Below are positions 3,101-14,375 of a stretch of DNA of 64,000 nucleotides, one piece after another (position 1 is the stretch's first letter; every line of letters begins with the position of its first letter). The translations under genes and the position numbers were made by a program. This stretch comes from an uncultured Clostridia bacterium (GTDB lineage Bacteria; Bacillota; Clostridia; UMGS1883): NCBI GenBank assembly GCA_947589005.1, contig CANPZO010000001.1, positions 124,001-188,000 of the forward strand, written 5' to 3'. The notes under the pieces are model-generated. The model saw only the letters and a program-made list of their open reading frames with translations, was not told the DNA's origin and made no database searches.

Positions 3101-3901
3101 TTATTTTTTCCGTCCCAGTTCCGCCGACTTCTTGGCGCAGGCGGCCACGGCGTCTATCATCGTGGCGCGGAGACCCTTTTCCTCAAGGCGGTAAATGGCT
3201 TCTATCGTTGTGCCGCCGGGAGAGCATACCATGTCCTTCAGCTTGCCGGGGTGCTCCATGGTGGACAGGGCCAGCTTCGCGGAGCCCAAGATGGTCTGCT
3301 CCACAAGAAGATAGGCTACGTCGCGGGGTATGCCCTGAAGCACTGCGGCGTCGGCCATGGCTTCTATCATCACGAACACATAGGCCGGGCCGCTGCCGTT
3401 GGTGGCGGTGGCCGCGTCAAAAAGGCTCTCGTCCAGAACGGAGGTCTTGCCTATGGCGTCGAACATCCTTATGACGCTGTCAAAGTCGGCGTCGCTGACG
3501 TTTTCGGTGCGGCAGAGAACCGTCATGGCCTCGTTTACCAGAGCGGGCACGTTGGGCATGGTGCGCACGATGCGCACCGTATCGCCAACGATATCAGCGA
3601 TATCCTCCCGGGTGAAGCCCGCCACAACGCTGACCAGCAGCTTGCCCCTGATACAGGGAGCTATTTCCGCCAGCACCTTTTCGGCCACATTGGGCTTGAT
3701 GGCCAACAGCACTACCTCGCCGGCTTCGGCGGCCTCGGCGTTGTGCAGGGTGGTGTTGACGCCCAGCTCTCTGAGGGGAGCCAGCTTCCTGTCGTAAAGG
3801 TCGCTGACGGTAATGTCCCCGGCGGGGATAATTCCGGCGTGTACCACGCCGTTCACGATTGCGCCGGCGATGTTCCCGGCTCCGATAACTCCAAGCTTCA
3901 T
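3101..3901 (-). CDS. proC: pyrroline-5-carboxylate reductase
   Basis: 266 residues, standard length. Catalyses the NAD(P)H-dependent reduction of 1-pyrroline-5-carboxylate to L-proline, the last step of proline synthesis, in the cytosol. The N-terminal Rossmann fold is visible (MKLGVIGAGNIAGAIVNG), followed by the P5CR features LLAIKPN, VSVVAGF, RTMPNVPALV and, near the C-terminus, SPGGTTIEAIYRLEEKGLRATM, which is the dimerisation-domain signature. It follows the third of three tandem secreted paralogs by 20 bp, so it may be co-transcribed with them; I see no functional link. A hairpin at 3053-3086 follows the gene. Confidence 0.96.
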   Translation of the reverse strand: MKLGVIGAGNIAGAIVNGVVHAGIIPAGDITVSDLYDRKLAPLRELGVNTTLHNAEAAEAGEVVLLAIKPNVAEKVLAEIAPCIRGKLLVSVVAGFTREDIADIVGDTVRIVRTMPNVPALVNEAMTVLCRTENVSDADFDSVIRMFDAIGKTSVLDESLFDAATATNGSGPAYVFVMIEAMADAAVLQGIPRDVAYLLVEQTILGSAKLALSTMEHPGKLKDMVCSPGGTTIEAIYRLEEKGLRATMIDAVAACAKKSAELGRKK

Positions 3902-3921: not shown

Positions 3922-5580
3922 TTAATCTGTGATTGTGACGTTTGTTCTGAAGTAGTACAAACTGTTATAACCGCCCGGCTCGTTATAACCGCCCGGATCA
4001 TTCATATTCACCCGAAACAGCTTTCCGTCGGCGCTGTAAAGCAGCACAGCGTTCAGCGGGTCGCGGAAATAATACGGGTTTTCGACCAAATCGGCGGTGA
4101 AGTACGGTCTCCCTTCGCCAAAGAGGGCAAAATTCACAATGGCGCCCGGAGCCTCACCCACGCGGCGGCCGTACACCGTCCCGTTCAGAATTCCGTAATC
4201 AAAGGGTTCGGAAGCGACAAACACATTCTGAGATAAGCTGCCCTGAAAATATCCGCTGTATTTGGTGACAACCGTCCCGCCGCCGTTGGTCTTGACCAAA
4301 ACCTCGTCCTCCATAGATGCCTCAATTATGCTTTCCGCGGCGCGCCTTTCCCTTATGTCGCCATCCACGGCCGCCATTATTTCTCTGCCGTCCTGACAGT
4401 AAAACGCATAGCCCTTCATTTCCGAGCCTATCAGTCCGTAGCCCACGTAGAAGTTGCCCTTAATATCCTCGGCAACGACCGTCTTTTCGCCCGTGGCGAT
4501 GTCGATTTGATAAAGGTCGGCGACCCCGTCCCTTTCACCCTTTATAAAGAGAGTGTAGCCCGAGGTTTTTGCGTCGCTGTAGCTTACGCCGTCGGCGGGG
4601 AATTCCCCCGCGCAGCCGTTGAGACTGTAGCTTACCTTCAAAAGCTCTCCCGTGACGGGGTCGCGGTGATAGTGAATAACAGCGTCGCCGGAATAGTCCT
4701 CGCTGTCGGGGGCCATGGCCCGCCGGTTTTGAACGGAGTCCCGCTTCTCCGTTTCAACCGGCGTCCCGTCGGGGCCAAATATAAAGCTGTATTCGTATCC
4801 GTCCTCCGTGCCGCCGAGGATATAGTCCATCCGGCATCGGCTGTTTTCACAGGCAAAGCTCACCCTTGCCGCCTCTCCGGTCAACGGGTCCACGGGCACG
4901 GTGTATACGAGCTGGGGCTCTCCGGGCGCCCAGCCCGCCTCCTTGCCTCCGTCGGCGGCCCGGTAGACATTGCCGTCCGTCGCCTGATAATAATAGTATT
5001 TTCCGTCATAGGCCGCCGCCCCGCCGCCATAATTCCAAAGCCTCATACTGATAAGCGAGGCGTGATAATTATCGCTCTTGATATACAGGTCGCCTTGGCC
5101 GTCGTCTTCATAGCTCAGACGGAGGCGGGAAAGATACGGCTCCGCCAACGGAATATAGGTTATGTCTCTGAAAACCAGCAGGGGCGGGTCCTGCTCGGAA
5201 TTTTTGATAACGGCGCCCTCGTCAGACGAATCCGTATAAAGGGCAACGTCATTTTTGAAAATATCCACCTCAACCTCCGGCGGATTTAGCTCCGGCCTGT
5301 AATACTGCCGCCAGCCGCAGCTCACGCCCAGCCGCCGCACCGTGACGAGGCCGGTTTCGCTGTCCCAGTCGGTAACGAGGCCCAGAAAGCGGCTGCCGTA
5401 ATAGGACAGGGGGATATAGTATGTACCGCCGTACTCCAGCGCCGGATATTCGGTTTTCCAGTTGTCGGCAGTCTCGCCGTTCACCGTCACGCCCGCAACC
5501 GTATGGGCCGTTTCGGCAAAGGCGGCGGACGCAGCAAAAACCGTCAAAACGGTCAGGATAGCAAATATTATTTTTTTCAT
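3922..5580 (-). CDS. secreted stalk/propeller-like protein, paralog 1
   Basis: 552 residues with a signal peptide (KKIIFAILTVLTVFAASAAFA). The N-terminal part (about 25-160) has two copies of a stalk-like (copper amine oxidase N-terminal-like) pattern: YPALEYGGTYYIPLSYYGSRF and, later, RDITYIPLAEPYL. The rest has short repeated beta motifs such as GNVYRAADGG and ADLYQIDIATGE, like the DUF5050-type beta-propeller. The closest relatives are the next two genes upstream. The start is ATG 5580, 7 nt after GGGAGGT; it overlaps the upstream stop by one base (TGATG), so translation is probably coupled. Function unknown; a cell-surface or envelope role is inferred from the signal peptide and promoter. 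Confidence 0.8.
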   Translation of the reverse strand: MKKIIFAILTVLTVFAASAAFAETAHTVAGVTVNGETADNWKTEYPALEYGGTYYIPLSYYGSRFLGLVTDWDSETGLVTVRRLGVSCGWRQYYRPELNPPEVEVDIFKNDVALYTDSSDEGAVIKNSEQDPPLLVFRDITYIPLAEPYLSRLRLSYEDDGQGDLYIKSDNYHASLISMRLWNYGGGAAAYDGKYYYYQATDGNVYRAADGGKEAGWAPGEPQLVYTVPVDPLTGEAARVSFACENSRCRMDYILGGTEDGYEYSFIFGPDGTPVETEKRDSVQNRRAMAPDSEDYSGDAVIHYHRDPVTGELLKVSYSLNGCAGEFPADGVSYSDAKTSGYTLFIKGERDGVADLYQIDIATGEKTVVAEDIKGNFYVGYGLIGSEMKGYAFYCQDGREIMAAVDGDIRERRAAESIIEASMEDEVLVKTNGGGTVVTKYSGYFQGSLSQNVFVASEPFDYGILNGTVYGRRVGEAPGAIVNFALFGEGRPYFTADLVENPYYFRDPLNAVLLYSADGKLFRVNMNDPGGYNEPGGYNSLYYFRTNVTITD

Positions 5581-7343
5581 CACTTATACCTCCCGTATGG
5601 GCCCCACTGGGCCACGTCCTTAGTCAGGTCCACCTCCACGAGCCAGCCGTCCACAACGTAAAGCAGCTTTTCAATGTCCTCGTACATGGTGGAGTTTCTG
5701 CGTATCCTGTTTCTGTAAATATAGGGCTTTTCCGCGTAGTCCGCGGTGTAGAACGGGTCGTCGGCAAAGACGGCGAAGTTCACGTCCGAGCCGGCGACGC
5801 TCCTGTCGAGGGAAAGGGACAGAACGCCGTCGGTCTTGCTCAGCTCAAAGTCCCTGTCTGCGGAAAACACGTTCCATATGTCGCCCTTAGTGTTCCATAT
5901 ATACTTTACGCTCACGCCGCCGCCGGCTTTCCCGAGGGCGGCGAAGCCAAGACAGAGATGCTCGTCCTTGGCGGCGTAATCCAGAAATTCATAGTCAGAG
6001 GCCGATTTTTGGGTATAAAATATCCTTTCCTCGGCCACGGTTTCGACCGGGCTGTTTTGGCGAGCTATACGCCCCACACGGAAGTTGCCCGCGATATCGG
6101 GAGCATACAGCGAAACCGCGCCGGTGGAGGGCTCCAACCGATAAATGGAGGCTATGCCCTCTTTTTCACCCTTGAAATACAGCCTGTCATCAAGCATCAG
6201 GGCCTCGCTGAACTCTATGCCCTCCGCGTTAAATTCACCGCTGACGTCCTCCGTATAATAATCTCCGTCATTGACGTCCCCGCCGGATTTTTTCACGGTG
6301 TAGCTGACCCTGTCGGTATGGGGGACGCCGTTTTCGTCAAGGACGCGGTGATAGCGGACGGTGAACCCGCCGCCCCGCTCATCGATGTCCGGCCACCTTT
6401 CCCGACGGTTTTGGAGGCTGTTCCAATAGTCTACCTCCTTCAAGCCGTCGTCCCAGCCGCAGACGTACCAATGCTCGACGCCCGTTTCCCCGTCGCCCAG
6501 CCGGTAGTACATATATGCGGCGCCGCCGTCCGGCGAGCAGAAGTTGGCCTCGGGAACCTTGCCGCTGTCACGGTCAAGGGGCATTTCCAGCAGGAGCCTG
6601 AGATTTTCACCGTCGAAGCAGTAGATATTTCCGTCGGCGCCCTGATAGTGATAATGGCCCAGACTGTCCACAGACGCCGCGCCGCCGTTATAGTTCGGCA
6701 GATACACCCTTTTTACGGCGAAGTTGTTACCGTTAAGGTAATAGGCCGAGCCGTCGGTCTCCGTTTTGAGTTCCCAGCACAGCAGATTAAGGTACGGGTC
6801 CGCCAGCGGAATATAGGTAATGTCCCTAAAGGTCAATAGAGGCGGGCTCTGCTTTTCATTCGTGACGGTGAGCCTGCTCATATCCACATCGTAGGTGCCC
6901 TCATACGGACGGGTAAGACTGTCCGAGGCGGCGTTTATAACAATGTCGCCGCCGAACGCCGAAGCCTCGAGGGTGTCCGGATTTCTTTCCTCTCTAAGGT
7001 AATCGCGGTACATACCGCTTACGCCCTTGTCATTTATGATGACGGTGCCGGTTCCCGCGTCGTAATCCGTGGTAACGCCCATAAAGCGGGTATCGTAGTA
7101 GGTCAGGGGGAAGTATATGTTCCCGCCGTAGACCAGCAGAGGATATTCCCGGCGGACGTTATTGATTTTTGTGCCGTTTAATGTAAAATCCGCCGTGAGC
7201 AGACGGACGTCCAACGTATCCCCGGCGCCGCCGCAGGCGAGCCCCCGCCCTTCGCAACCGGAGAGGCCCGCATCCTCCGCCGGCGCCGTAACCGCCGTCA
7301 GCAAAGCCGCCGCCAGTATTGAAACGAACAACATTCTTTTCAT
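5580..7343 (-). CDS. secreted stalk/propeller-like protein, paralog 2
   Basis: 587 residues, signal peptide MKRMLFVSILAAALLTAVT. Same plan as its neighbours: a stalk-like region with YPLLVYGGNIYFPLTYYDTRF and LTFRDITYIPLADPYL, then blades resembling a sequence of GNIYCFDGEN and ASIYRLEPSTGAV units. Compared with the other two paralogs it has an extra 20-30 residue segment after the signal peptide, with two Cys and many Gly, and a longer central region. It has its own promoter at 7380-7406 that matches the promoter of the gene upstream. AAGGAGG precedes the ATG at 7343. No enzyme motif is seen. Confidence 0.8.
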   Translation of the reverse strand: MKRMLFVSILAAALLTAVTAPAEDAGLSGCEGRGLACGGAGDTLDVRLLTADFTLNGTKINNVRREYPLLVYGGNIYFPLTYYDTRFMGVTTDYDAGTGTVIINDKGVSGMYRDYLREERNPDTLEASAFGGDIVINAASDSLTRPYEGTYDVDMSRLTVTNEKQSPPLLTFRDITYIPLADPYLNLLCWELKTETDGSAYYLNGNNFAVKRVYLPNYNGGAASVDSLGHYHYQGADGNIYCFDGENLRLLLEMPLDRDSGKVPEANFCSPDGGAAYMYYRLGDGETGVEHWYVCGWDDGLKEVDYWNSLQNRRERWPDIDERGGGFTVRYHRVLDENGVPHTDRVSYTVKKSGGDVNDGDYYTEDVSGEFNAEGIEFSEALMLDDRLYFKGEKEGIASIYRLEPSTGAVSLYAPDIAGNFRVGRIARQNSPVETVAEERIFYTQKSASDYEFLDYAAKDEHLCLGFAALGKAGGGVSVKYIWNTKGDIWNVFSADRDFELSKTDGVLSLSLDRSVAGSDVNFAVFADDPFYTADYAEKPYIYRNRIRRNSTMYEDIEKLLYVVDGWLVEVDLTKDVAQWGPYGRYK

Positions 7344-7379: not shown

Positions 7380-7406
7380 GACGAAAAAAGCTTCAAAAAA
7401 GTCACA
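7380..7406 (-). promoter_or_regulatory. ECF-sigma-like promoter before paralog 2
   Basis: On the minus strand TGTGAC (7401-7406) is followed by a T-run, 17 nt of spacing and CGTC (7380-7383). The same layout occurs before paralog 3. A T-tract after the -35 and a CGTC -10 core are typical of ECF sigma factors; no sigma-A -10 is evident here. Confidence 0.5.
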
Positions 7407-7412
7407 GGTTTT

Positions 7413-8705
7413 TTATTCGGTATATCTGTTTTTCGGCTTGTCGCTCAAGTCCACCCTCACAAGGCTGCCCTCCGCGACGTACAGCAGGACGCTTTCCCCG
7501 CCGCCGTCGTAATAGAATGGGTCGTCGGCATAGTCGGCGGTAAAGTAGGGCCAGCCCTCGGTCAGGAGGGCGAAGTTCACGTTGGCGTCCGGGTCAAGAC
7601 GGTCTGAGGCCAAATAGGAGCTTAGACCTATCCTGCCGATGGACATTTTCCAGTCGTCGCCGGACATATTGATGTCCAGGCTGCCCGAAAAGCTCCCGGG
7701 CACCAGCACCGAGCGGGTGCCGCCGCTGTCCCTGTGCAGAGTGTAGAGGACGTTCCTCCCCCGCTCCGGATCAAAGGGCAGGTCGCTGTTCACTCCCAGC
7801 ATGGTCTTATCGCCCTTCTTCACCGAATAATACACAAGCCCGCTGACTATGTCGCTCAGGGAGTCGAGGCCGGTCTCACCCACAGCACCGCCGCGGGTCT
7901 CGCCGGCGTAGGGATAGACCTCTCCGTCCGAAACGGTAAAGATCCTTTCTCCCTCTTCCCCTGCGCTGTAGCGCATATAGGTCACGTCATTCTCACGGAA
8001 AAAGCTCACCCTCGGGAAGGCGCCGTCCAGCTCGGGGACGGAGTGGATAAGCTCCGCGCTTTCCCCGTCGGAGCGGTAAACTCCGCCGTCAGCGGCCTGA
8101 TAATAATAGCAGTCGCCGTCCACCGCCGCCGCACCGCCGCCGTAATTGTACAGCTTAACTTCCTCGGGGTGATAGTTGTTGCTGACAATGTCAAGTCTGT
8201 CCCCGTCGAACTCACACTTAAGCTCAAGCACGGCCGTATAGGGTTCGGTCAGCGGTATATATGTAATATTACGGAAGGTCAGAAGCGGCGGATTTTGGTC
8301 GCTGTTTTTAATGAGCCTGTCGGTGACGCTGTCGGAGGCAAACTTGTTCACAAGGCGGATATCGCCGTTATAGACCTTGGCGTCCACACTTGCCGGATTA
8401 GCCGTCTCACGGGAATATGGCCGGTACATACCGGCGACGTTGCTCTGGTAAACGGTCACAAGGCCGGCCTCCCTGTCCCAGTCGGTGACAAGGCCCATAA
8501 ATCTCGCGTCATAATAGGTCAAAGGCAGATATACCTTCCCCCTGTACTCAAGTATCGGATATTCGCGGTATTCGCTCTCCACCCTTACGCCATTGACGGT
8601 TATCTTAAGCTCCGACACCTTCGGCTCCTCCTCCACCGCCGCCGAAGCGGTGAGCAGGAACATGGCCAGCGCCGCGGTCATAATGACGACATACAATTTT
8701 TTCAT
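7413..8705 (-). CDS. secreted stalk/propeller-like protein, paralog 3
   Basis: 430 residues with a signal peptide (KKLYVVIMTAALAMFLLTASA). The stalk-like part is the clearest of the three: YPILEYRGKVYLPLTYYDARF, VTDWDREAGLVTV, NPPLLTFRNITYIPLTEPY. The C-terminal part is shorter than in paralogs 1 and 2, because part of the repeat region is missing; the end (NVNFALLTEGWPYFTADYADDPF) matches the others, so this is an internal length difference and not a truncation. It is the first gene of the tandem set, driven by an ECF-like promoter at 8749-8775, with AAAGGAGG before the ATG. Confidence 0.8.
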   Translation of the reverse strand: MKKLYVVIMTAALAMFLLTASAAVEEEPKVSELKITVNGVRVESEYREYPILEYRGKVYLPLTYYDARFMGLVTDWDREAGLVTVYQSNVAGMYRPYSRETANPASVDAKVYNGDIRLVNKFASDSVTDRLIKNSDQNPPLLTFRNITYIPLTEPYTAVLELKCEFDGDRLDIVSNNYHPEEVKLYNYGGGAAAVDGDCYYYQAADGGVYRSDGESAELIHSVPELDGAFPRVSFFRENDVTYMRYSAGEEGERIFTVSDGEVYPYAGETRGGAVGETGLDSLSDIVSGLVYYSVKKGDKTMLGVNSDLPFDPERGRNVLYTLHRDSGGTRSVLVPGSFSGSLDINMSGDDWKMSIGRIGLSSYLASDRLDPDANVNFALLTEGWPYFTADYADDPFYYDGGGESVLLYVAEGSLVRVDLSDKPKNRYTE

Positions 8706-8748
8706 GGGCTTTTCCTCCTTTGCGCAGTCCTGTGCGTCTATATATAAA

Positions 8749-8775
8749 GACGCGCAAAATCATGAAAAAGTCTCA
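8749..8775 (-). promoter_or_regulatory. ECF-sigma-like promoter before paralog 3
   Basis: Minus strand TGAGAC (8770-8775), TTTTT, total spacing 17 nt, CGTC (8749-8752). The surrounding sequence also aligns with the promoter before paralog 2, so the promoter was either duplicated with the gene or kept by selection. Confidence 0.5.
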
Positions 8776-8816: not shown

Positions 8817-10250
8817 TTAAACGCTCAGCTCGGCGGTAAGTCCGAGTAAATCCTTATTGGCCTCGACAATGGGTTTTATCACCCCATTGATATACTCCTC
8901 GGTCTGCTGTGGAGCGCGGCCCACATAGTTTTCGGGCTTAAGAATGGAACGGAGAGCGTCTATGTCAAGGTTGAAGCTGCCGTCGGCGGCGATGAGGTCG
9001 ATAAGGTTGTTGGGGCCGCCGTTGACCTTAACGTTCTTCCCCGCCTCCATGGACAGCTCACGTATCTTTTCGTGGAGCTCCTGACGGTCGCCGCCCTTCT
9101 TAACCGCCTGCATCATAATGTTTTCGGTGGCCATAAAGGGCAGCTCGCTCATGATGCGGCTTTCAATGACCTTGGGATAGACCACCATGCCGTCGGCGAT
9201 GTTCATGTATATCTCCAATATGGCGTCGGTGGCCAGGAAAGCCTCGGCAACGCTGATGCGCTTGTTGGCGCTGTCGTCCAAAGTCCTTTCGAACCACTGT
9301 GTCGAGGCGGTAATGGCGGGGTTGAGAGCGTCCACTATCACGTACCGCGCAAGAGAGCAGATGCGCTCGCTGCGCATGGGGTTGCGCTTATAGGCCATGG
9401 CCGAGGAACCTATCTGGCTCTTTTCAAAAGGCTCCTCCATCTCCTTGAGGTGCTGAAGCAGGCGAAGGTCGTTGCTGAACTTATAGGCGCTTTGAGCTAT
9501 GCCGGCCAGGACATTCAGCATTTGGGTATCCAGCTTGCGGGCGTAGGTCTGGCCCGAAACCGGAAACACCGCGTCATACCCCATCTTTTCGGCTATCCTC
9601 ATGTCAAGGGCCTTGACCTTTTCGTGGTCGCCCTCAAACAGCTCCAAAAAGCTGGCCTGAGTGCCGGTAGTACCCTTGCTGCCAAGGAGCTTGGCTTTGG
9701 AAAGCCTATGATCCACGTCCTCAAGGTCCATGACAAGGTCGTTGAGCCAGAGGGTGGCGCGTTTGCCAACGGTGGTGAGCTGGGCCGGCTGGAAGTGCGT
9801 AAAGCCAAGAGTGGGCATATCCTTATATTTCATGGCGAAATCACCCAGCTTGGCGATGACGTTGACGAGCTTTTTGCGGATAAGCCGCAGGGCCTCGGTC
9901 ATAACTATGATGTCGGTATTATCACCCACATAACAGCTCGTGGCGCCGAGATGTATTATGCCCTTCGCCTTTGGGCACTGGACGCCGTAGGCGTAAACGT
10001 GGCTCATAACGTCATGGCGCACCTGCTTTTCACGGGCCTCGGCCACCTCATAGTTGATGTCGTCGGCATGGGCCTTAAGCTCGTCCACCTGCTCCTGAGT
10101 TATGGGCAGGCCAAGCTCCATTTCGGTCTCGGCCAGGGCTATCCACAGCTTTCTCCAAGTCCTGAACTTCATGTCGTTGGAAAAAAGGTACTGCATTTCC
10201 TTGCTCGCATAGCGGGAATTAAGGGGGCTCTGATAAGTATTGTTCGACAT
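8817..10250 (-). CDS. purB: adenylosuccinate lyase
   Basis: 477 residues, matching the clostridial form. Cleaves SAICAR to AICAR and adenylosuccinate to AMP, releasing fumarate, in de novo purine synthesis. The fumarase/aspartase superfamily signature is present as GSSAMAYKRNPMRSE (about residues 285-300), with the other conserved blocks TSCYVGDNTD and LGFTHFQPAQ. The gene has its own promoter (10293-10321) and GGAGGT before the ATG. No other purine gene is in the window. Confidence 0.97.
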   Translation of the reverse strand: MSNNTYQSPLNSRYASKEMQYLFSNDMKFRTWRKLWIALAETEMELGLPITQEQVDELKAHADDINYEVAEAREKQVRHDVMSHVYAYGVQCPKAKGIIHLGATSCYVGDNTDIIVMTEALRLIRKKLVNVIAKLGDFAMKYKDMPTLGFTHFQPAQLTTVGKRATLWLNDLVMDLEDVDHRLSKAKLLGSKGTTGTQASFLELFEGDHEKVKALDMRIAEKMGYDAVFPVSGQTYARKLDTQMLNVLAGIAQSAYKFSNDLRLLQHLKEMEEPFEKSQIGSSAMAYKRNPMRSERICSLARYVIVDALNPAITASTQWFERTLDDSANKRISVAEAFLATDAILEIYMNIADGMVVYPKVIESRIMSELPFMATENIMMQAVKKGGDRQELHEKIRELSMEAGKNVKVNGGPNNLIDLIAADGSFNLDIDALRSILKPENYVGRAPQQTEEYINGVIKPIVEANKDLLGLTAELSV

Positions 10251-13043: not shown

Positions 13044-14375
13044 TCAAATTTTTATGGTCACGGCACGGGCGTCTCCGTCCCAAAGCACCTCGGCATCCAG
13101 CAGCTCGGCGAAGGCCCGTACAGGCATCATCACTCTGCCGCCGAGGTTTATCACCGGGGAGGTGAGATCCCTTTCCTCGCCGTTCAGCACGGCCTTGGTC
13201 TCATTCACTCGGGCGGAAAGCTCAATGCCGTTTCCACTGGCGGTGACGGTGCCGTTTCGCCAGCCCACCGTCAGGCCCATGGCCTCAAGCACGGCCCTTG
13301 CCGGGGCATATGTAACGCCGCCTATCACGGCCGGAGGGACGTCAAATTCGATTTCCGTCCCGTTGACCTCCACGGTCACCGGACCGGAAAAGGTCATTCC
13401 GCTCATCTGAGCGTAGTATTCGGCATAAGAACCCTTCTCCCCCACCAAAACCACATTCTGTGAGCCGGAGAAGGCGTATTCGTCTATCCATTCCACCCCC
13501 GGCGAAAAAATCACCGTGCGCAGAGACCCTGCCTCGCCGAAGGCGGCCTCGTTGACCGTCTTTATGGTGTCCGGCAGATATACCGCCGTTATCCTGTCGT
13601 TGGACATGAAGGCCCCGCTGCCCAGAGAGGTTATGCCGCCGGGCACGCTCACGCAGCCGCCCTCGCCGTTATAGGCCACGAGGATATGGTTTACCTCCAC
13701 GAACTCCTCTCCGCTGTTCTTGAGCCAGGCGGTCCCGTCAAAGGCGCCTATGCCAACAAAGGAAAGTGTGGAGGGGAAATTGATGACGGAAAGGTTCGAG
13801 CAGTTGACAAAGGCGTTGTCGCCTATCTCGATAAGTCCCTCCGGCAAATCTACCATTTGGAGATTTTCGTTCCCTGAAAAGGCCCCGGGGGCTATTTTCT
13901 GAACGCCCGCGGGCACCCAGACCTTGTCGCCGGCGCCGCTGTATTTGAGGAGCAGCGTCCTGCCAGCTATGACAAAGCCCTCCCCCTGACCGCCGGCCCA
14001 GGGAGTGCCCTCAAAGGCGTTAAGCGGGATATTCTCCACGGTACCGAAAAAGTCCACCTCGCGGAGGCCGGTGCAGCCCCGGAAAGCCTCGCTGCCGATG
14101 TGATTGACGGTTTCGGGAATGTCCACCGACCGAAGGCTCACACAGCCGTAAAAGGCCCGGTCGCCTATGGAGGTGACCTTGTATCCGGCTATGGCGGACG
14201 GGATTGTCAGCCAGGCGGGGTCGCCGGCAAAGCCGGTTATCTCGCCGGTGCTTTTTTCAAAGAACAGCAGCGCCCCGTCCACTCTGTAAACCGGTATTCC
14301 TCCGGCGGAAAAGGCGGCCATTGATGCGGAGACCGCGGTGACAAGTGAAATGATAAAAATTAAAAGCTTTTTCAT
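13044..14375 (-). CDS. secreted leucine-rich repeat (BspA-type) protein with C-terminal stalk domain
   Basis: 443 residues. Signal peptide (KKLLIFIISLVTAVSASMAAFS), then BspA-type LRR_5 repeats (about 45-310) seen as recurring AFYGCVSLRSVDIPETVNHIG, AFSGNENLQMVDLPEGL and AFVNCSNLSVINFPSTL units, and a C-terminal stalk (copper amine oxidase N-terminal-like) domain from about 335, with FDVPPAVIGGVTYAPARAVLEAMGL and PVINLGGRVMMPVRAFAELL. Probably a surface or secreted binding protein. It follows rex by 22 bp and precedes cls by 13 bp, so the three look co-transcribed; the reason is not obvious. Confidence 0.85.
   Translation of the reverse strand: MKKLLIFIISLVTAVSASMAAFSAGGIPVYRVDGALLFFEKSTGEITGFAGDPAWLTIPSAIAGYKVTSIGDRAFYGCVSLRSVDIPETVNHIGSEAFRGCTGLREVDFFGTVENIPLNAFEGTPWAGGQGEGFVIAGRTLLLKYSGAGDKVWVPAGVQKIAPGAFSGNENLQMVDLPEGLIEIGDNAFVNCSNLSVINFPSTLSFVGIGAFDGTAWLKNSGEEFVEVNHILVAYNGEGGCVSVPGGITSLGSGAFMSNDRITAVYLPDTIKTVNEAAFGEAGSLRTVIFSPGVEWIDEYAFSGSQNVVLVGEKGSYAEYYAQMSGMTFSGPVTVEVNGTEIEFDVPPAVIGGVTYAPARAVLEAMGLTVGWRNGTVTASGNGIELSARVNETKAVLNGEERDLTSPVINLGGRVMMPVRAFAELLDAEVLWDGDARAVTIKI

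Follow-up and report, generated by a model that had tools for sequence, protein, structure and literature searches.

Two sites of the form TGWGAC-N17-CGTC precede a cluster of genes for exported-type proteins in the genome of an uncultured Clostridia bacterium (G000, 2.107 Mb), and the question they raise is which sigma factor reads them. Within the window, i.e. the whole 64,000-nt stretch of DNA that was analysed, they are the only exact matches to this motif on either strand. Located by sequence match, the first site, P1 (8775–8749, minus strand), consists of a −35 element TGAGAC (8770–8775) followed by TTTTTC, a 17-nt spacer (8769–8753) and a −10 element CGTC (8749–8752) followed by TTTATATATAG. 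The second, P2 (7406–7380, minus strand), carries TGTGAC (7401–7406) followed by TTTTTT, a spacer of the same length (7400–7384) and CGTC (7380–7383) followed by CTTTATATC. Both sites therefore display a T-tract 3′ of the −35 and T/A-rich DNA 3′ of the CGTC. An earlier, sequence-only reading of this DNA had paired the two, and both are indeed present, but the first begins at 8775 and not at 8770. With a CGT-containing −10 and a 17-nt spacer, within the expected 16–17 nt, P1 and P2 look like promoters of ECF sigma factors, whose −35 is expected to contain AAC; here it is TGWGAC. As a promoter type, they are ordinary.

P1 is followed by the gene of paralog 1 (7413–8705, minus strand), a 430-residue protein that starts with MKK and a hydrophobic stretch like an exported protein, and P2 by the gene of paralog 2 (5580–7343, minus strand; 587 residues). 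The cluster had been described as two tandem paralogs, but it contains a third (3922–5583, minus strand; 553 residues). Paralog 3 has no site of its own and its start lies inside the end of the paralog 2 gene, so it is probably co-transcribed with paralog 2, from P2 as well as P1. The upstream neighbour of the cluster is a purB-like adenylosuccinate lyase gene (8817–10250, minus strand; Pfam ADSL_C and Lyase_1, tblastn). A proC-like pyrroline-5-carboxylate reductase gene (3101–3901, minus strand) lies just downstream and is possibly reached by read-through.

The N-termini of the paralogs are of the export type, and the proteins have no match in Pfam or NCBIfam. In particular, the stalk domain Cu_amine_oxidN1 (PF07833) gives no match to them at E ≤ 1, and a profile comparison with a true member of that family yields an E-value of 0.014 at a probability of 3%. 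The PDB sequences, searched with paralog 1 only, returned a single match (E 0.62). For the same protein, an AlphaFold model built from three sequences is beta-rich and poor (mean pLDDT 51.5), and all of its Foldseek matches have E > 0.001 and TM < 0.25. Elsewhere in the window, a gene at 13044–14375 (minus strand) encodes a BspA LRR protein of the exported type whose C-terminus carries a Cu_amine_oxidN1 domain; neither of the promoter patterns called class A and class B below matches in front of it.

The sequence-only reading had linked the two sites to a regulon whose motif should be enriched upstream of genes across the genome. For the bare motif no such enrichment is found: TGWGAC-N17-CGTC occurs 10 times, compared to 9.2 expected from base composition (one match for the reversed control; 0.28 expected within the window), so this count is uninformative as an enrichment test. 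The same applies to the window when one mismatch is allowed (7 matches, 5.1 expected). The motif becomes enriched only when extended by the T-tract or by the T/A-rich DNA that follows the −10. With TTTT required after the −35, the expectation for the genome falls to 0.02 matches, and P1 and P2 are the only two present. The pattern GACTTT-N12..14-CGTC has 19 matches in the genome (12 for the reversed control), and those that lie outside long genes and just 5′ of a start are P1, P2 and the sites of two ECF genes. In all, 31 near or strict matches were inspected in their context, and only P1, P2 and two sites on contigs C13 and C5 are intergenic, close to a gene start and equipped with a fitting −10. 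Among rejected candidates, C6:19824 precedes a gene, yet its −10 is broken (CGGC), and C9:20174 and C23:4725 are not within long ORFs, and no nearby gene start was found for either.

The chance-level frequency of the bare motif would also suit a fortuitous resemblance, with housekeeping promoters, or transcripts running on from purB, serving the paralogs. We regard this as highly improbable. The two T-tract matches stand 70 nt (P1) and 63 nt (P2) before the ATG, each with a ribosome site, of a paralog; an ECF-type promoter occupies the orthologous position in all six relatives compared; and a search around P1 and P2 found no sigma-70-like promoter.

A candidate sigma factor is encoded outside the window. 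The genome contains 12 matches to Sigma70_r4_2, and the upstream DNA of all 12 was inspected. The ECF gene at C13:24354–24887 carries TGTGAC-N16-CGTC-CTTATTATT at C13:24286, 68 nt before its start, which bears out the suggestion that some ECF gene should carry the motif in its own promoter. Its product scores 61.2 bits against the ECF family model TIGR02937 (cut-off 42.9) and exceeds the cut-off of Sigma70_r4_2; its match to Sigma70_r2 is weak (E 0.0028) and below cut-off. At E ≤ 1e-20, homologs are found at 11 loci in 9 of the 21 genomes of the family. The three closest orthologs (66–69% identity; in G002, G003 and G007) are preceded by TGTGAC-N17-NGTC, located 243 nt away in G007, so that a −35 ending in GAC is common to these promoters and that of the C13 gene. 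Furthermore, the stretch GTCTTTATATATAG at the −10 of P1 recurs 5′ of the G003 ortholog.

We call this promoter type class B. It is a loose class because the ortholog promoters have GGTC or TGTC instead of CGTC and CG instead of TT after the −35. These differences, together with the 16-nt rather than 17-nt spacer of the ECF gene's own promoter, count against the assignment of P1 and P2 to the C13 factor, as do the TGCAAC or TGAAAC types found upstream of more distant homologs (G004, G010, G011, G012 and G020). A second class B ECF copy in G003 (C19:4428–4958, locus L120; 58%) has no TGTGAC site, and a class A site lies 165 nt upstream of it, which would place one ECF factor under another.

The end of the C13 ECF gene is overlapped by the next gene, whose product has a single hydrophobic segment as judged by eye. 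This anti-sigma-like protein has no match in Pfam and is 34% identical to its G002 counterpart. The ECF genes of G002, G003 and G007 likewise overlap or abut a gene for a TM-containing protein. Four neighbour proteins of relatives were tested; DUF4179 matches three and Cu_amine_oxidN1 two, all below cut-offs. The Cu_amine_oxidN1-like part forms the C-terminus of the 436-residue G002 and 437-residue G003 proteins and is missing from the 312-residue G000 protein (L048:8888–9826).

An autoregulated operon, a membrane anti-sigma factor and a −35 with AAC are named as ECF hallmarks in PMC8103513. With the ECF operons described there class B shares the sigma2 and sigma4 regions, a neighbouring gene for a TM anti-sigma-like protein, a promoter of its own, a CGT-containing −10 and a small predicted envelope regulon, but its −35 has GAC in place of AAC. 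DUF4179 occurs in anti-sigma factors such as RsiV (PMC6066255), and the weak DUF4179 matches of the class B relatives are a likeness to the SigV–RsiV (ECF30) system; however, the best 25 models listed for the class B ECF include none for SigV. The proposed SigV/SigW typing of the two sites is not a close fit: the −35 ends in GAC, not AAC, and the C13 protein reaches 24.3 bits of the 243.1 required by the NCBIfam SigW equivalog model TIGR02948.

Class B sites were sought in eight genomes of the genus with the pattern TGWGAC-N16/17-NGTCYWTW, which has 20 matches (14 + 6) compared to 3 (2 + 1) for the reversed controls. Sixteen of the matches fall in those four genomes where a close class B ECF is encoded; the remaining four genomes share four, all within ORFs. 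Ten of the 20 stand before a gene start and not within a long gene, namely P1, P2, the sites of four ECF genes and four others (G002, G007 and two in G003). The genomes with a close class B ECF account for the full set of ten and the other four genomes for none; these are not ten independent tests because the pattern is partly drawn from the ECF sites. The four others, which were not used in finding the class, stand in front of genes whose products are of the exported type. Two of these products are a GH88 enzyme and a laminin-G/Big_2 protein; a third has the Cu_amine_oxidN1 domain, and the fourth has no match. The G002 site (C54) overlaps a 102-codon frame and one in G007 (C3) a 114-codon frame on the opposite strand, both taken as spurious. 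As far as the genome sequences go, class B sites precede exported-protein genes only where the ECF is present.

At least two other ECF promoter classes are used in the genus, and class B is separate from both. Class A, GGGAAC-T6...CGTCTAA, goes with a SigW/SigM-like ECF (C20 in G000) and a zf-HC2-like anti-sigma factor. Its pattern, GAACTTTT-N11..14-CGTCTA, has 77 matches in the eight genomes and 2 in the reversed control. Thirty of these loci were inspected and 28 have a gene start behind the site; by eye, 24 of the targets are of the exported type, three are anti-sigma-like and one is neither. The targets tested include serpin, BspA-type LRR, S-layer and stalk-domain proteins. In all seven genomes in which the ECF was seen, a class A site lies across or directly next to the 3′ end of its gene and precedes the gene for the zf-HC2-like protein (in one tested, zf-HC2 is below cut-off). 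Class A sites number five in G000, 7–16 in six relatives and one in G006, with genome completeness varying. Serpin-like genes lie behind class A sites at C8:32018 in G000 (L083), where the protein matches Pfam Serpin at E 4e-83, and at C2:305751 in G003 (L107), where it is similar by eye. The SigW and SigM regulons of B. subtilis have AAC...CGTC promoters. Class A shares this promoter type and the anti-sigma type, and its ECF has strong matches to the SigM and SigW models that stay below their cut-offs; P1 and P2, in contrast, are outside class A by score.

Class C, TTGAC-T6...CGTCTAATAA, belongs to an ECF30-like ECF (C5:84468–84923 in G000) with a membrane anti-sigma-like neighbour, and TTG[AGT]C-TTTTT...CGTCTAATAA is found upstream of the gene in six of six orthologs. 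This ECF looks closer to the SigV–RsiV kind. A fourth ECF type, present in G001, G005 and G004 (L175, L176 and L178, respectively), has a conserved upstream site TTTTTGAACCTTTTT...CATCTAATTATTG.

Weight matrices were made from 24 class A, 7 class B and 6 class C sites, with the window sites left out. In leave-one-out trials all 37 training sites are classed correctly, a result aided for class A by the partial ascertainment of its set by motif and obtained for class B with a small set. P1 scores 28.7 bits for class B, −1.1 for A and 1.7 for C. P2 scores 19.9, 6.6 and 13.7 bits, respectively, a lead of only 6 bits over class C. Both sites fall in class B.

The class C score of P2, and the likeness of P2 to the class C ECF's own promoter, TTTGACTTTTTT...CGTC, would be accounted for if P1 and P2 were read by the C5 factor, alone or jointly with the class B factor. 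This is quite unlikely given that in all six class C orthologs the second base of the −35 is T instead of G and CGTCTAATAA follows, features that P1 and P2 lack, and that P1 scores only 1.7 bits for class C.

We consider it likely that P1 and P2 serve a single sigma factor, the class B ECF of C13, held by its anti-sigma-like neighbour and released by a signal. The membrane protein whose gene overlaps the end of the ECF gene would hold the sigma factor until an outside signal, presumably one of envelope stress, frees it. The freed factor would then use TGTGAC-N16-CGTC to transcribe its own operon, and P1 and P2 to transcribe the three-paralog cluster of envelope proteins.

The same gene position in related genomes has a different promoter. 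Homologs of paralog 1 are found in seven of the eight genomes. Twenty-six loci were inspected in relatives. In 17 of them the gene is preceded by a class A site, which the pattern picked up in 16 cases; the other, where GGGAAC is followed by ATTTTT, was recognised by eye. Of the nine loci without such a site, two begin at a contig end and at least two lie inside gene clusters. purB is the upstream neighbour in G000 and in six relatives (G001, G002, G003, G004, G005 and G007), and in all six the purB-linked promoter is class A, with GGGAAC or TGGAAC. The aligned −35 elements, TGGAAC and the TGAGAC of P1, differ at two bases; the TA-rich sequence 3′ of CGTC is also different.

These class A promoters at the orthologous genes, the identical spacing, T-tract and CGTC, and the intact class A ECF and GGGAAC site of G000 are what one would expect if P1 and P2 were class A promoters that had drifted in sequence but were still recognised by the SigW/SigM-like factor of C20. 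Such an arrangement is unlikely: both sites score far higher for class B than for class A, GAAC is replaced in them and the TAA after CGTC is lost, whereas the five class A sites of G000 retain both (the search pattern itself required GAAC and CGTCTA).

With recognition by the class B factor as the preferred reading, class A in six relatives and class B here mean that the cluster appears to have swapped its ECF regulon. In a purB tree of six genomes, G000 stands beside G002 and G003 with weak support (0.59) and all other branches are class A, the simplest reading of which is that class A gave way to class B on the branch leading to G000. We lean towards the view that the purB-linked promoter left a large SigW/SigM-like regulon (TGGAAC...CGTCTA) for a small, separate ECF regulon through a change of the −35 core from GGAAC to GAGAC and a change after CGTC, taking the three paralogs along. 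The change may have taken place a single time, before the gene was duplicated, or separately at P1 and P2.

A literature search, with subscription journals mostly outside its coverage, found no paper that combines this motif with clostridia, ECF factors with a stalk domain, or orthologs with different sigma factors; broader searches returned reviews and papers on single factors. For a genus that had not been studied, the analysis yields three pairs of ECF sigma and anti-sigma factors whose promoter classes can be told apart and whose predicted targets are mostly exported proteins. P1 and P2 are a clear candidate for one gene position served by two ECF classes in sister species, and the exchange of genes between regulons becomes testable here by short promoter–reporter swaps.
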